Under the pieces are notes generated by a model. That model was not told the origin of the DNA. It worked only from the letters and a program-made list of their open reading frames with translations, and ran no database searches. From positions 1 through 64,000 of the forward strand of contig NZ_JACSQK010000003.1 in assembly GCF_014836675.1 (NCBI RefSeq): a DNA stretch of 64,000 nt, given 5' to 3'. A program made the position numbers and the translations under genes. Source of the stretch: Comamonas avium. Lineage in GTDB: Bacteria; Pseudomonadota; Gammaproteobacteria; Burkholderiales; Burkholderiaceae_C. Within the stretch, counting starts at the first letter, position 1, and every line of letters begins with the position of its first letter. Below are positions 27,234-31,448 of the stretch, one piece after another.

Positions 27234-27656
27234 GGCGGGACTTTCTGTGGCAGGAGGGGGTGATGCCCTGAAAGCCTGTGCTGGCACACAAGTGGTGCAT
27301 CAGCGCAGGTCTTCAGACCTGTGGCGCACCGTTGGAGGTGCGCCCGCTGAGCAATTTCCGGCGCTGAAACTCCTGGTGGGCTGCAGTGCTGAACGCTTCT
27401 ACTCGTGCAGGCTTGTACCAAGCCAGATTCGTGCCAGCTGCGTGGCTGCTGATGTTTGCGCTGGCGCAAAACACGCTGGCACAGGATGTGCTTGAACGCT
27501 GTTTGAGTAGAAGCGTTCAGCGCATGCATGGTTGCTGCCATGCCGCCCGGAAATTGCTCACCCCCCAAAGTTGCAAGACGGCTGGGACGGGGTGGCATAC
27601 GCTGCACATCCTCGTTTGCGCTGGCTTGCTGCCACCACCGATGAAGGAGTTTTGCC
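27234..27656 (+). promoter_or_regulatory. Hairpin-rich leader of the binding-protein/deaminase operon
   Basis: 423 bp without a supported gene. Hairpins on the plus strand: CAGGTC-TTCA-GACCTG (27306-27321), GGCGCACC/GGTGCGCC (27323-27344), GGCTTG-TAC-CAAGCC (27410-27424) and TTTGCG/CGCAAA (27455-27470). A 17-bp perfect inverted repeat spans 27388-27404 and 27505-27521. Its right arm can instead pair locally (27493-27500 with 27512-27519). The layout suggests alternative folds of a 5' leader. I recognise no known riboswitch consensus. Confidence 0.45.
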
Positions 27657-28691
27657 ATGCAACGCCGCCACTTTTTACGCACTGCGACCTGTCTGTCTTC
27701 TGCCGCCGCGCTGCTGCCTGCCAGCAGCTGGGCACAAACGGGCAAGAAAGCGCTGGTTCCTGTGAAGTTCACGCTGGACTTCAAAGTCACCAGTCAGACA
27801 TCGCCTTTCTTCCTGGCGGCCTCCAGGGGCTACTACGCCGAAGAAGGGCTGGATGTGCAGATTGATGTGGGCGCAGGCTCGGTTGCGTCGATCACGCGGG
27901 TGGCCTCAGGGGCATATGACATGGGGCTGGGCGACATCAGCTCATTGATCGAGGCGCACGCCAGCGGCACCATGCCCGTGCAGGCCGTCTACCAATACTA
28001 CAACCGCGCACCCTTCACCATCATTGGTCGCAAGGACAAGGGCATCACCAGCAGCCTTGACAGCCTCAAAGGCAAGAAAGTGGCGGCGGCTGCCGTCGAG
28101 GCGACACGCCGCTGCTGGCCCATGGTGGCCGATCAGCAAAAGCTGGCAGAGCCTTTCTTTGACTGGGTGACCACCGATTTCAGCGCGCGCGACAACGTAG
28201 TGGTGCGTGGCGATGTCGATGCCGCCACCTATTTTCACGACTCGGCCATCTCGCTGTTCATGCGCATGCCGCCAGAGCAACTGAGCGTGCTGTCCTATGC
28301 CGACGCCGGTGTGCACCTGTATGGCAATGCCGTGCTGGCCAGCAGCAAAATGCTGGCAGAAAAGCCCGAAGTGGTGCGTGCATTTTTGCGCGCCACCCAG
28401 CGTGCGCTGGTAGAGACGCTGGCCAACCCCGATGCCGCGCTGGCTGCCGTGCGCACCCGCGAGCCGCTGCTGCGCGCAGATCAGGAAAGCGCCCGCTGGG
28501 CCATCACGCGCACCTATCTGGCGAATGCGGAAACCGCCCGCGTCGGCCTGGGGCATATTGATGCGGCCGTGTTGACCCGGCAAATTGCGCAGGTTGGCAA
28601 AACCTTTGCGCTCAAGCAATTGCCGGCCACTGAGCAGATATGGAATACGGCCTTTTTGCCAGCAGCGGTCAAGCACGGTGGTGCGGCATGA
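27657..28691 (+). CDS. NMT1/THI5-like ABC substrate-binding protein
   Basis: 344 aa periplasmic binding protein. The signal MQRRHFLRTATCLSSAAALL has a twin-arginine-like RRHFLR and ends near SWAQ. The mature protein matches the NMT1/SsuA/TauA fold: VKFTLDFKVTSQTSPFFLAASRGYYAEEGLDVQIDVGAGSVASITRVASGAYDMGLGDISS, and SLDSLKGKKVAAAAVEATRR. Such proteins bind small aromatic or sulfonate ligands, among them hydroxymethylpyrimidine-type bases. No permease or ATPase gene adjoins it, so it must share a transporter. AAGGAG precedes the ATG. It overlaps a deaminase gene by 4 bp, which favours a nucleobase-like ligand. Confidence 0.87.
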   Translation: MQRRHFLRTATCLSSAAALLPASSWAQTGKKALVPVKFTLDFKVTSQTSPFFLAASRGYYAEEGLDVQIDVGAGSVASITRVASGAYDMGLGDISSLIEAHASGTMPVQAVYQYYNRAPFTIIGRKDKGITSSLDSLKGKKVAAAAVEATRRCWPMVADQQKLAEPFFDWVTTDFSARDNVVVRGDVDAATYFHDSAISLFMRMPPEQLSVLSYADAGVHLYGNAVLASSKMLAEKPEVVRAFLRATQRALVETLANPDAALAAVRTREPLLRADQESARWAITRTYLANAETARVGLGHIDAAVLTRQIAQVGKTFALKQLPATEQIWNTAFLPAAVKHGGAA

Positions 28692-29209
28692 GCGCCGCTG
28701 AAAAGCCCTTTGCAGGTTTCCTGCCCGAGCAGACTGTCAGCGAGCGTGATGGCGTCTATCTGCGTCAGGCCATTGGCCTGTCGCGCACGGCGCGCGAGCG
28801 GGGCAATCGGCCCTTTGGCTCGCTCATCGTGGCGCGCGACGGCACGGTGCTGGGGCAGGGCTGGAACAGCAACAGCGAGTTGCGCGACTGCACCGCGCAC
28901 GCGGAAGTGCAGGCCATTCGCGATGCCAGTCAGCGCCATGGCCGCGAAGCCCTGGAAACCGCCACCCTCTACGCATCGGGCGAGCCTTGTGTGATGTGTG
29001 CGGGTGCCATCTTCTGGGCCAATCTGCGCCGGGTGGTGTACGGTATTGATGACCAGCGGCTGCGCATCTTTCGGGGAGAGCGGCTGGACCAGCGTGATGT
29101 GGAGCTGTCGTGCCGCGATGTGTTTCGTGCAGCGCCGTTTGACATCGAATGCGTGGGCCCCGCATTGATCGATGAAGCCAGCCAGCCGCACGTGGGCGCG
29201 TGGAAGTGA
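28688..29209 (+). CDS. Zinc-dependent nucleoside/nucleobase deaminase
   Basis: 173 aa of the cytidine deaminase-like fold. Zinc site: His71-Ala-Glu73 (CTAHAEVQAI) and Cys101/Cys104 (GEPCVMCAGAIFW). The sequence is closest in style to guanine and tRNA-adenosine type deaminases; the C-terminal half (VELSCRDVFRAAPFDIECVGP) differs from TadA, so a free base or nucleoside substrate is likelier. ATGA overlap with the upstream binding-protein gene makes the pair one translational unit, suggesting uptake followed by deamination of the same compound. Confidence 0.87.
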   Translation: MSAAEKPFAGFLPEQTVSERDGVYLRQAIGLSRTARERGNRPFGSLIVARDGTVLGQGWNSNSELRDCTAHAEVQAIRDASQRHGREALETATLYASGEPCVMCAGAIFWANLRRVVYGIDDQRLRIFRGERLDQRDVELSCRDVFRAAPFDIECVGPALIDEASQPHVGAWK

Positions 29210-29334
29210 AAACTTCTTTGCACACTGTGGCGTAACAACCACCCAGGCGCGATAGCACCATTGCGGGGATGAGCACCTCCACTGGGGTGCTCTGCCTACA
29301 ATCGCAACATCTTCAGCAGTGCAACACTGCCTAG

Positions 29335-29378
29335 CCAGGGACGACCTTGGTGAGCTTTGACCATCACGGGACGACCCG
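29335..29378 (+). promoter_or_regulatory. Guanidine-II (mini-ykkC) riboswitch
   Basis: Two adjacent stem-loops with identical ACGA loops: CCAGGG-ACGA-CCTTGG (29335-29350) and CGGG-ACGA-CCCG (29367-29378), 16 nt apart. This is the defining architecture of the mini-ykkC motif, known to bind guanidinium cooperatively. It ends 28 nt before the start codon of a Gdx-type exporter, its classic partner gene, with AAGGAG at 29395-29400 between them. When guanidinium is bound, the folded hairpins are expected to free that ribosome site. Confidence 0.93.
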
Positions 29379-29406
29379 CACCTTCATGCAATGCAAGGAG
29401 CTTCGT

Positions 29407-29727
29407 ATGGCTTGGCTTTATCTCGTGGTGGCGGGTTTGTTGGAAGTTTTGTGGGCCTTCACCATGAAGCAGTCCCATGGTTTTTCCAGACTCACCCCCA
29501 GCATCATTACCCTCATCGCCATGATTGCCAGCTTTGGTCTGCTGTCCATGGCCATGCGCACCCTGCCCTTGGGTACGGCCTATACGATCTGGACAGGCAT
29601 TGGCGCGGTGGGTGCGTTTGTGGTGGGCATTACGGTGCTGGGCGAGCAAATTACACCCATGCGCATTGCAGCAGCGGCACTCATCGTGAGCGGGCTGGTG
29701 CTGATGAAGCTGTCGTCTGCTGATTAA
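29407..29727 (+). CDS. gdx: Guanidinium exporter, SMR family
   Basis: 106 aa, four membrane helices, dual-topology small multidrug-resistance fold. The start MAWLYLVVAGLLEVLWAFTMKQSHGF carries the essential Glu13 and the Trp16 of the Gdx/SugE subtype. GTAYTIWTGIGAVGAFVVGI is the Gdx signature in helix 3. It exchanges guanidinium for protons. The riboswitch just upstream confirms the subtype over general quaternary-ammonium exporters. The ATG at 29407 follows AAGGAG at 7 nt; an in-frame GTG at 29347 lies inside the riboswitch and is rejected. Confidence 0.95.
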   Translation: MAWLYLVVAGLLEVLWAFTMKQSHGFSRLTPSIITLIAMIASFGLLSMAMRTLPLGTAYTIWTGIGAVGAFVVGITVLGEQITPMRIAAAALIVSGLVLMKLSSAD

Positions 29728-29768: not shown

Positions 29769-30089
29769 TCAGTGAATGATCACGGCAGTGCCGCTGGCTG
29801 ACACCATCAGCATGCTGTTGGCAGCGCCCAAAATCTCATAAGTTAACGCCACGCCCACCACGGCGTTAGCCCCAATTTGAATAGCATGCGCCTGCAGCTC
29901 TGACAGTGCCACCTCGCGGGCCTTTTGCAGCTCACGTTCGTTGGAGCCCGCCCGGCCACCTGTCAGGTAGCGGATGCCGGCAAACATGTCCTTGAATACA
30001 TCGGTGCCCAAGATGACCTCGCCTGCCACCACGCCGCAGTACTTGCTGATGGTCTTGCCTTCTACGCTATGGGTGGTGGTGACAATCAT
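29769..30089 (-). CDS. YbjQ/UPF0145 family protein
   Basis: 106 aa. It matches the YbjQ family, small proteins with a putative heavy-metal-binding domain that form pentamers: [81 protein letters not shown]. The ATG at 30089 gives the family's normal N-terminus; a longer frame to 30494 is not homologous. It converges with gdx. Function is unproven. Confidence 0.9.
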
Positions 30090-30445: not shown

Positions 30446-30475
30446 TGTGCAAAAAATAAGCATGTGGTTTATACT
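30446..30475 (+). promoter_or_regulatory. Promoter-like site of the small structured unit
   Basis: TATACT (30470-30475) is a good -10 box. A weak -35 candidate TGTGCA (30446-30451) stands 18 bp upstream. Transcription would begin near 30482, exactly where the folded leader starts. Confidence 0.45.
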
Positions 30476-30480
30476 TACGG

Positions 30481-30579
30481 CTACGGGTTATCACTTAGTG
30501 GTTATTCCGTAGTTGTGGACAGTTGAGATGCTTGTCCACAGCCACTTAGAAAGGCATCTCGTACACAGAAAGAACTGTC
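30481..30579 (+). promoter_or_regulatory. Candidate pseudoknot leader (riboswitch-like)
   Basis: Hairpin A: CTACGG (30481-30486) with CCGTAG (30507-30512). Stem 1: TGTGGACA (30514-30521) with TGTCCACA (30533-30540), 8 bp perfect. Its loop contains GAGATGC (30525-30531), which pairs perfectly with GCATCTC (30554-30560), giving an H-type pseudoknot with a 13-nt crossing loop. GACAGTT (30518-30524) is also the exact complement of AACTGTC (30573-30579), the 7 nt just before the AUG at 30580, so pseudoknot and start-blocking helix exclude each other. Direct repeats CACTTAG occur at 30492 and 30543. No known class recognised. Confidence 0.5.
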
Positions 30580-30657
30580 ATGCGCCAAGCCATCAACTCC
30601 CTGATCGAATTCATCCAAGAAGCACGTGCTGCCCACCTGGAAATCGCTAGCCAGTAA
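30580..30657 (+). CDS. 25-residue small protein or leader peptide
   Basis: ATG at 30580 to TAA at 30655 gives 25 residues, beginning MRQAINSLIEFIQEARAA. Hydrophobic residues (Ile5, Leu8, Ile9, Ile12, Leu20, Ile22) recur every 3-4 positions, so an amphipathic helix is likely. Codons are those favoured in strongly expressed genes (ATC, CTG, GAA, AAC, TTC). The ribosome site is a weak purine stretch (AGAAAGAA). It lies in its own unit between the pseudoknot leader and a terminator. There are no runs of one amino acid, so classical attenuation is unlikely. I do not recognise the peptide. Confidence 0.5.
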   Translation: MRQAINSLIEFIQEARAAHLEIASQ

Positions 30658-30707
30658 TCAGGCGTCGATCACAGCCATGCGGGCTGTTAAAACTGCGCAA
30701 TAGGAAG

Positions 30708-30740
30708 TGCCCTCCAGCAATGGCTGAAGGGCATTTTTGT
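30708..30740 (+). terminator. Terminator of the small structured unit
   Basis: TGCCCT (30708-30713) pairs with AGGGCA (30728-30733); inside, CAGC/GCTG adds four pairs. TTTTTG follows. With the promoter-like site it bounds a transcript of about 260 nt and lies 70 bp before the response regulator. Another 6-bp hairpin, ACAGCC/GGCTGT, sits at 30671-30687. Confidence 0.85.
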
Positions 30741-30809
30741 TTGGAGCGTGTCATTGCCTTTGCGTTATCGGCAAAGCAGCCATGCCTGCGGCGTGGCAGA
30801 CTGCGCGAC

Positions 30810-31448
30810 ATGTCAGAACCCACCCTGCTGGTCGCCGATGACCACCCCCTTTTTCGTGCCGCCGTGCTGCACGTGCTGCGCGAGCGTTTTGCGCAGTACC
30901 AGACCCTGGAAGCCGCCAGTGCAAGCACGGTCAGCAGCTCTTTGCAGGAACACCCTGAGGTGGAGCTGGTACTGCTGGACCTGACCATGCCCGGTGCGCG
31001 GGGCTTTTCTACCTTGCTGCATGTGCGCGGGGAGTACCCCGAGATACCCGTGGTCATCATCTCCTCGAATGACCACCCGCGCGTCATCCGCCGTGCGCAG
31101 CAGTTTGGTGCAGCGGGTTTCATTCCCAAATCGAGCCCTGCAGAAGACATTGGCAACGCCATTGACGCGGTGCTTGAGGGCGGCAGCTGGTTTCCGCCGA
31201 TGGCGGCAGAGCGCTCTGAGGCCGATGCCGAACTGGCTGCGCGTCTGGCGCAGCTCACTCCCCAGCAGTTTCGCGTGCTGCTGTGTTTGGCGGATGGACT
31301 GCTCAACAAGCAAATCGCCCATGAGCTGGGTTTGGCCGAGAACACCGTGAAAGTGCATGTGACGGCAATTTTGAAAAAGCTTGAGTGCTACTCACGTACG
31401 CAGGCTGCCGTGCTGGTCAAGAGCCTTGAGAACGACGCAGATATTTGA
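30810..31448 (+). CDS. LuxR/NarL-type response regulator
   Basis: 212 aa. An N-terminal receiver domain has the acidic pair Asp10/Asp11 (LLVADDHPLFRAAV), phosphoacceptor Asp57 (LVLLDLTMPG) and Lys107 (AGFIPKSS). The C-terminal LuxR-type helix-turn-helix begins near residue 145 (LTPQQFRVLLCLADGLLNKQIAHELGLAENTVKVHVTAILKKL). The style resembles ErdR/CrbR regulators, which answer hybrid kinases in acetate and C4 metabolism. No kinase gene adjoins; the hybrid kinase at 35670-38321 is the nearest candidate partner. The start at 30810 gives the usual MSEPTLLVADDH. Confidence 0.9.
   Translation: MSEPTLLVADDHPLFRAAVLHVLRERFAQYQTLEAASASTVSSSLQEHPEVELVLLDLTMPGARGFSTLLHVRGEYPEIPVVIISSNDHPRVIRRAQQFGAAGFIPKSSPAEDIGNAIDAVLEGGSWFPPMAAERSEADAELAARLAQLTPQQFRVLLCLADGLLNKQIAHELGLAENTVKVHVTAILKKLECYSRTQAAVLVKSLENDADI

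Follow-up and report, generated by a model that had tools for sequence, protein, structure and literature searches.

The region 30446-30740 of the window, by which we mean the whole stretch of 64,000 nucleotides analysed here, contains a transcription unit that is probably the mRNA of a small protein, with a pseudoknotted leader acting in cis on translation initiation while the Shine-Dalgarno (SD) sequence stays unmasked, and with a factor reading one pseudoknot helix, S2, by its sequence. Its RNA family and its peptide family are absent from the libraries searched and fall within the known pseudoknotted leaders of small-protein mRNAs. Comparison of sequences from 53 loci establishes the two pseudoknot helices (S1 and S2), the peptide and the linkage of RNA and peptide, and, less firmly, a 5' hairpin (hairpin A).

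Layout of the unit

The preliminary description of this DNA had reported a TATACT box, a pseudoknot, a 25-codon frame and a terminator, and a check of the sequence confirmed the position of all four. The unit comprises the following features:

30447..30475, + strand: putative sigma-70-like promoter (GTGCAA, 17 nt, TATACT), by inspection
30447-30452, + strand: -35-like GTGCAA, 17-nt spacer before TATACT, from the sequence
30470-30475, + strand: -10 TATACT box within the block GTGGTTTATACTTA (30464-30477), from the sequence
30482..30511, + strand: 5' hairpin A, from a constrained fold; near the probable 5' end, abuts S1
30512..30542, + strand: S1 stem, 11 bp including G-U pairs (30512-30522/30532-30542), apical loop TT plus GAGATGC
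30525..30531, + strand: S2 5' strand GAGATGC in the S1 loop, partner 30554-30560
30543..30553, + strand: loop L3 of the H-type pseudoknot, variable in the locus comparison
30554..30560, + strand: S2 3' strand GCATCTC, partner 30525-30531
30567..30572, + strand: Shine-Dalgarno-like AGAAAG between S2 and start codon, by anti-SD match
30580..30657, + strand: 25-codon ORF MRQAINSLIEFIQEARAAHLEIASQ, stop TAA, by translation
30703..30738, + strand: terminator hairpin with T-run, by folding

The -35-like GTGCAA is weak; the block GTGGTTTATACTTA is mostly kept across 28 loci, with departures in L024 and the two Lampropedia loci, and has one match at ≤1 mismatch in its own genome. A simple consensus scan returned no promoter at the unit, and the consensus terminator scan did not list the plus-strand site, the sole terminator-like site being the minus strand of the same hairpin; the promoter and terminator calls therefore rest on inspection and folding. 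The terminator stretch 30655-30745 folds with -36.3 kcal/mol (z -3.44; 0 of 200 shuffles equally stable). Transcription probably starts near 30481-30482, close to hairpin A, and the unit is best read as monocistronic and free-standing, with a predicted mRNA of ~260 nt and a leader of ~100 nt. The idea of a self-contained unit, made up of structured leader, conserved peptide and terminator, was supported, and the unit had no match in the catalogues searched.

Relatives and distribution

Counting the window, 53 distinct loci of Comamonas and further Comamonadaceae were compared, and all 53 match the model of the leader RNA. A DNA search was positive in 8 of 200 family genomes, among them the window's own, and a profile made from eight peptides in 17 of 399; the same profile found 18 named loci in the species collection. 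The loci stem from Comamonas, Diaphorobacter, Acidovorax sp. MR-S7, Lampropedia and two metagenome bins, and within the window's genus the unit is present in 38 of 53 genomes. At the cut-off used for the distribution searches (E 0.001; strict filters in the many-genome RNA searches), the RNA model matched 3 of 300 genomes in a sample of the order and the peptide profile 2 of 369 in a sample of the class, all of them from the window's own genus and none from outside it. The RNA was found in 14 of 299 family genomes, all 14 belonging to the 17 of 399 that were peptide-positive, and in these the peptide follows the RNA directly. No locus examined had one without the other, and there was a single copy per genome; the next RNA matches in the window's own genome had E-values of only 3.2 and 6.8. 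Significant matches (E ≤0.001, strict filters) were found upstream of this peptide only and upstream of no other gene. A mobile element was considered and dismissed, there being no match in the viral contigs, plasmids or phages searched.

The RNA model (R1) and its alignment (A3) comprise 26 of 28 loci; a near-copy (L032) and a locus with an insertion in hairpin A (L013) were left out, and both match R1. Subtraction of nine copies (L069-L073, L075, L077, L080, L096) from 34 further loci of the genus left 25 unused for R1, all of which match it with E-values of 2.8e-18 to 5e-7, many of them being close kin of training loci; among these 25, the peptides of L087-L091 gave E-values no better than 7.8e-6 to 3.0e-5. 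L019, L029, L031, L037, L039, L040, L041, L001-L008 and L044-L057 are repeats of loci under other ids, L103 is not in the counts, and a spurious reverse-strand row of alignment A6 (L083, E 0.008) was not counted either. Sequence conservation among six close relatives is 0.37-0.67 upstream and reaches 0.69-0.96 between about -125 and +150; this island stands out less clearly in 13 loci of the C. testosteroni group, whose upstream sequence shows fair conservation as well (0.62-0.97).

Comparative evidence for the pseudoknot

The core of S1 consists of 8 bp, TGTGGACA (30514-30521) with TGTCCACA (30533-30540), and grows to 11 bp once G-U pairs are included, and GAGATGC (30525-30531) pairs 7/7 with GCATCTC (30554-30560) in the window; the 8-bp stem and the 7-bp loop pairing from which an H-type pseudoknot had been proposed are hence both present in the sequence. 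Folding of the window alone was unremarkable (181-nt leader plus ORF: MFE z -0.81, 38 of 200 shuffles equally stable) and, therefore, relatives were needed to decide on the structure. A sequence-only MAFFT alignment of 26 loci, not fitted to the RNA model, was scored over 8 S1 and 7 S2 pairs against 500 shuffles. The covariation score of S1 and S2 amounted to 0.342 versus 0.165 in shuffled alignments, standard pairs made up 90.2% versus 80.4%, and 9 of the 15 pairs were changed on both sides versus 5.7; each value was reached by 0 of 500 shuffles. With the 3' partner slid by 1-3 columns as a control, pairing fell to 24-53% and covariation to 0.044-0.106. The compensatory changes whose absence from homologues would, by the preliminary description, have spoken against a conserved switch were indeed found, and by these comparisons the pseudoknot is more than chance, the evidence against chance coming from the relatives.

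All 8 scored S1 pairs are double-changed among relatives in the 26-, 28- and 53-locus alignments. In the last of these (53 rows, 52 distinct) S1 is 84.9% paired, with 0 of 500 shuffles as good, and over 28 loci, too, 0 of 500 shuffles came up to the observed values; the pairing percentages over 28 and 53 loci, here and below, come from alignments fitted to the RNA model. In about eight loci (L087, L089-L091, L093, L094, L098, L099) S1 is poor in the fixed register and forms, by eye, in a shifted one, with one U-U mismatch in L098 and L099. S2 pairs 7/7 in 53 of 53 loci and occurs in four sequence combinations: GAGATGC/GCATCTC, identical in 45 loci, the same 5' strand with a GCGTCTC partner (G-U) in 6, CAGATGC/GCATCTG (a compensated swap) in 1 and GGGATGC/GCATCTC (G-U) in 1, so that one swap is compensated and the G-U changes, of two kinds, concern 7 loci. 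The pseudoknot loops L1 and L3 vary among loci. This near-invariant S2 beside a freely varying S1 suggests that something reads S2 by sequence, because mere pairing would let S2 drift like S1.

Hairpin A

S1 covaries strongly, hairpin A less so: 5 of its 8 pairs are double-changed, 79.0% of cells are paired over 28 loci and 78.4% over 53 (model-fitted alignments), and its five distal pairs are each missing from 12-20 of 52 rows. When 28 loci were folded with the S2 strands and everything downstream constrained to be open, a 5' hairpin lay 0-2 nt from the S1 hairpin in 28 of 28 folds, L013 having an additional hairpin; relative to shuffled flanks, the mean z was -4.09 and 26 of 28 loci lay below -2. 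The 5' arm and loop (30484-30498, GGGTTAAC.CTTA in DNA, GGGUUAAC.CUUA in RNA) are kept in sequence beyond the needs of pairing, and the loop, C.UUA, is unpaired and 85-100% conserved per position.

The 5' arm of hairpin A also resembles the promoter block GGTTTATACTTA, and several loci of the Diaphorobacter group have an inverted AACCCTAT just upstream of the promoter. A DNA-binding site at the hairpin A arm or promoter block is possible but unsupported by these sequences: AGGGTTAACNCTTAG, tried as a DNA operator, had 11 matches in its own genome at ≤2 mismatches, the unit included, versus 7 for the reversed control, and the spacing of the repeats varies among loci. In L010 (1572-1655, minus strand) an internal deletion shortens hairpin A to UAGGG-CAAC-CCCUA; pairing is retained, which fits an RNA hairpin rather than an operator of fixed spacing.

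The encoded peptide

Of the 53 loci, 51 encode a peptide of 25 residues and the other two, both from Lampropedia, one of 22. Over 26 loci the mean pN was 0.18 versus a pS of 0.48 (pN/pS 0.37), and by this measure the peptide is under purifying selection. F11, A15, R16, L20 and A23 are invariant in 18 sequences; a diverged Comamonas branch (MRQAINTLITFIADYREAHIGLANQ and kin: L087, L088, L090, L091) has the same leader, with A15 and L20 relaxed. GRAVY values of six peptides range from -0.27 to 0.57, the best 19-residue window scores 0.93, and the net charge is -3 to +1, at which a lambda N-like RNA binder is unlikely. The case for an amphipathic helix was weak, since the helical moments of the six peptides were reached by 9.8%, 2.8%, 32%, 3.5%, 18% and 21% of shuffles and thus by fewer than 5% in just two of them. 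Pfam, NCBIfam, PHROGs and PADLOC returned no family (two profile searches with three peptides at E ≤10 and two with the window peptide at E ≤1); a profile search of the PDB gave six matches of 8-13 residues, best E 0.0073, which were taken as chance. A conserved upstream ORF from the AUG in GAGAUGC was rejected, as this AUG is found in each of the three frames relative to the start across 28 loci.

The translation start

AACTGTC (30573-30579), directly before the start codon, is exactly complementary to GACAGTT (30518-30524) in the window, as had been noted when a helix blocking the start, and mutually exclusive with the pseudoknot, was first proposed. In that register the helix is complete (7/7) in 3 of 53 loci only, namely the window, L027 (Comamonas sp. 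NoAH 5) and L086; L014, L028 and L089 reach 6/7 and the other 47 loci 1-5/7, which speaks against such a switch as a general feature. In the window's clade (window, L026, L027, L028, L086, L089) the helix reaches 5-7/7, the 47 non-clade loci having 1-6/7, and a local feature of this clade is possible from the sequences. A further 7-bp match, in a shifted register, is present in L026. Before its start codon the clade retains CTGTC, which pairs with an S1 arm that changes, and the pairing is better than in other clades. Shuffled spacers reach the 7 bp of the window in 8.4% of trials.

SD sequences were searched for as the best match to what we take to be the anti-SD tail, ending 4-12 nt before the start, with overlap with S2 allowed. 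The best match comprises 3-6 nt (6 nt in 26 of 53 loci), and the SD-like site lies 2-17 nt 3' of S2 in 53 of 53 loci and overlaps S2 in none. The region from -15 to +3, which spans SD and AUG, has a mean unpaired probability of 0.52 when folded freely and of 0.56 with the pseudoknot strands held open (53 loci). Since there is no overlap of S2 and SD and exposure is nearly equal in both states, masking of the SD by the pseudoknot was rejected. Control by a ligand, also part of the preliminary description, fared unevenly: L1 and L3 vary, which makes a small-molecule ligand for the leader unlikely, whereas a ligand pocket at the conserved, unpaired loop of hairpin A is possible.

Proposed mechanism and alternatives

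In the mechanism that we favour, hairpin A would stand beside the H-type pseudoknot, followed by the SD-like site and then by a 25-residue peptide without membrane character. The pseudoknot would act in cis on loading of the mRNA onto the 30S subunit, by landing or unfolding and not by masking the SD, perhaps mediated by ribosomal protein S1, and a factor, either protein or RNA, would read S2 by sequence and thereby set the level of the peptide. Because nested folding shows almost unchanged exposure of SD and AUG, it is from position that we infer an effect of the pseudoknot on translation: the pseudoknot ends just upstream of the SD, which points to an effect in cis on 30S loading. Several points count against this explanation: a spacing of 13-28 nt from the 3' end of S2 to the start codon (53 loci) is loose for a precise steric gate, the invariance of S2 could instead serve an RNA role in trans, the distal pairs of hairpin A often fail, and the conserved island is less sharply set off in the C. 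testosteroni group. A more tentative reading, possible but on balance rather doubtful, makes the leader the receptor of a regulator that recognises the fixed sequence of S2 (GAGAUGC/GCAUCUC) and by this means governs a new family of 25-residue peptides; if true, the RNA family, the small-protein family and the RNA-binding regulator of these Comamonadaceae would all three be new.

The main rival is a dual-function RNA of the SR1 kind, which we consider unlikely. Its structured 5' part would act in trans, and the peptide would be a second product, as in RNAIII; the segments that might act in trans, with the same low probability, are the seed GAGAUGC in the S1 loop and GGGUUAAC.CUUA of hairpin A. 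The two conserved segments, one of them in an apical loop, the free-standing unit with its own terminator, present in a single copy per genome, and the conservation of the encoded peptide (pN/pS) would all suit such an RNA. However, in all 53 loci the invariant loop finds its partner in cis, and this partner is just as invariant; the two S2 7-mers show no clear enrichment nearby, since in 151,920 bases they match 27 times outside the unit, some of the matches being strain-repeated, versus ~19 times in random sequence, and TGAGATGC occurs 3 times in the window versus 3.18 expected. Rather less probable still is a leader that serves stability only, in which the 5' hairpin and the pseudoknot protect a well-translated small mRNA without regulation, comparable to the ompA-like case of a 5' structure protecting an mRNA. 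A hairpin near the probable 5' end, 0-2 nt from S1 in the 28 constrained folds, and the similar exposure of SD and AUG in both states agree with it, but it has no need of a fixed S2 sequence, and S2 is identical in 45 of 53 loci while S1 drifts.

The switch of the preliminary description, driven by ligand or temperature through a start-blocking helix exclusive with S1, is improbable: its 7-bp complementarity is real in the window, complete in L027 and L086 and 5-7/7 in the clade, for which reason we keep it as a rival, and the conserved, unpaired loop of hairpin A would suit it, but the helix is complete in 3 of 53 loci and 1-6/7 in the 47 non-clade loci, shuffled spacers match as well in 8.4% of trials and the pseudoknot loops vary. 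A type I toxin mRNA with an RNA antitoxin and a pseudoknot as in tisB or timP is the least probable of the explanations weighed. A tiny peptide, an own terminator and a pseudoknotted leader recall these systems (PMC7708055, PMC11295053), but the peptide is no hydrophobic membrane peptide (GRAVY -0.27 to 0.57, 19-residue windows ≤0.93 in six peptides) and has no plasmid or phage relative in the collections searched. Identity between -300 and -125 is just 0.37-0.67 in six close relatives, so that in these there is no sign of a divergent antitoxin.

Relation to known systems

The preliminary description had recognised neither RNA nor peptide, and neither matches a family in Rfam, Pfam, NCBIfam, PHROGs or PADLOC. 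No Rfam family scored above its gathering threshold at 30446-30740; the four matches of a permissive search scored 13.7-14.5 bits, at E 0.84 to 4.9, far from gathering scores of 37-70.7. Riboswitches of the SAM-II and preQ1 classes also have an H-type pseudoknot leader close to the SD; the unit differs from them in that its pseudoknot loops are not conserved and no such Rfam match was obtained at E ≤5. The peptide strings were absent from the open-access literature searched, no open-access paper on a Comamonas small RNA with a pseudoknot was found, and this RNA and peptide were absent among the matches listed (titles and abstract openings).

By comparison and folding, the unit has the trait that would place it beside tisB and timP, namely a small-protein mRNA whose 5' UTR carries a pseudoknot; the likeness would be one of mechanism and not of membership. 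According to PMC7708055, the tisB mRNA of E. coli has an H-type pseudoknot near its 5' end without which 30S and ribosomal protein S1 do not bind; it resembles the unit as the mRNA of a very small protein, but it needs to be processed, its standby site lies ~100 nt from a sequestered RBS and its product is a toxin, whereas in the unit the pseudoknot adjoins the SD and the peptide is not membrane-like. The timP mRNA of Salmonella, likewise a small-protein mRNA, is unprocessed, and the pseudoknot in its 5' UTR activates translation in a way that is not simply a release of the SD; it encodes a 38-aa inner-membrane toxin and has a divergent antitoxin RNA (PMC11295053), whereas no membrane character was found in six peptides of the unit and the upstream sequence of six close relatives gives no sign of a divergent RNA. 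In the rpsO (S15) leader, as summarised in both papers (PMC7708055, PMC11295053), protein S1 unwinds a pseudoknot and docks the mRNA on the 30S platform; this leader differs from the unit by a ribosomal protein product under autogenous control, the product here being a 25-aa peptide with a net charge of -3 to +1 (six peptides). SR1 of B. subtilis is, like the unit, a stand-alone short RNA encoding a small protein, the 39-aa SR1P, and base-pairs with ahrC mRNA (PMC7430163); the searches run gave no link between SR1P and the unit's peptide.

Pseudoknots without which translation initiation is not activated are described as rare examples, partly because such interactions are hard to predict (PMC11295053). 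The pseudoknot of the unit is backed by covariation across 53 natural loci, and the free-standing unit of ~260 nt can be moved whole into a laboratory strain. With one freely varying and one nearly invariant stem, the question of a factor that may read S2 can be put to the test by a few sequence swaps. In addition, a conserved family of 25-residue proteins is added that is absent from the profile libraries searched.

Genomic neighbourhood

Two xanthine riboswitch aptamers (NMT1 RNA, RF03054) lie at 27344-27409 (minus strand) and 27500-27564 (plus strand), facing away from each other, the plus-strand copy preceding an NMT1-like binding protein (27657-28691) and a deaminase-fold protein (28640-29209). 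They are followed by a Guanidine-II riboswitch (29333-29379) upstream of a small multidrug resistance protein (29407-29727; PF00893, E 5.3e-29). Among 21 loci compared, 8 had ORFs of this Guanidine-II cluster in their flanks, most often upstream of the unit and in L030 downstream on the other strand; the neighbour clustering behind this count includes many antisense ORFs and gives a hint of a neighbourhood shared with the Guanidine-II cluster. The unit itself is flanked by a YbjQ-type protein (29772-30089, minus strand) and a LuxR-type response regulator (30810-31448, plus strand), the latter coming right after the unit in the window as well as in L026-L028, and ~1.7 kb downstream in L034.
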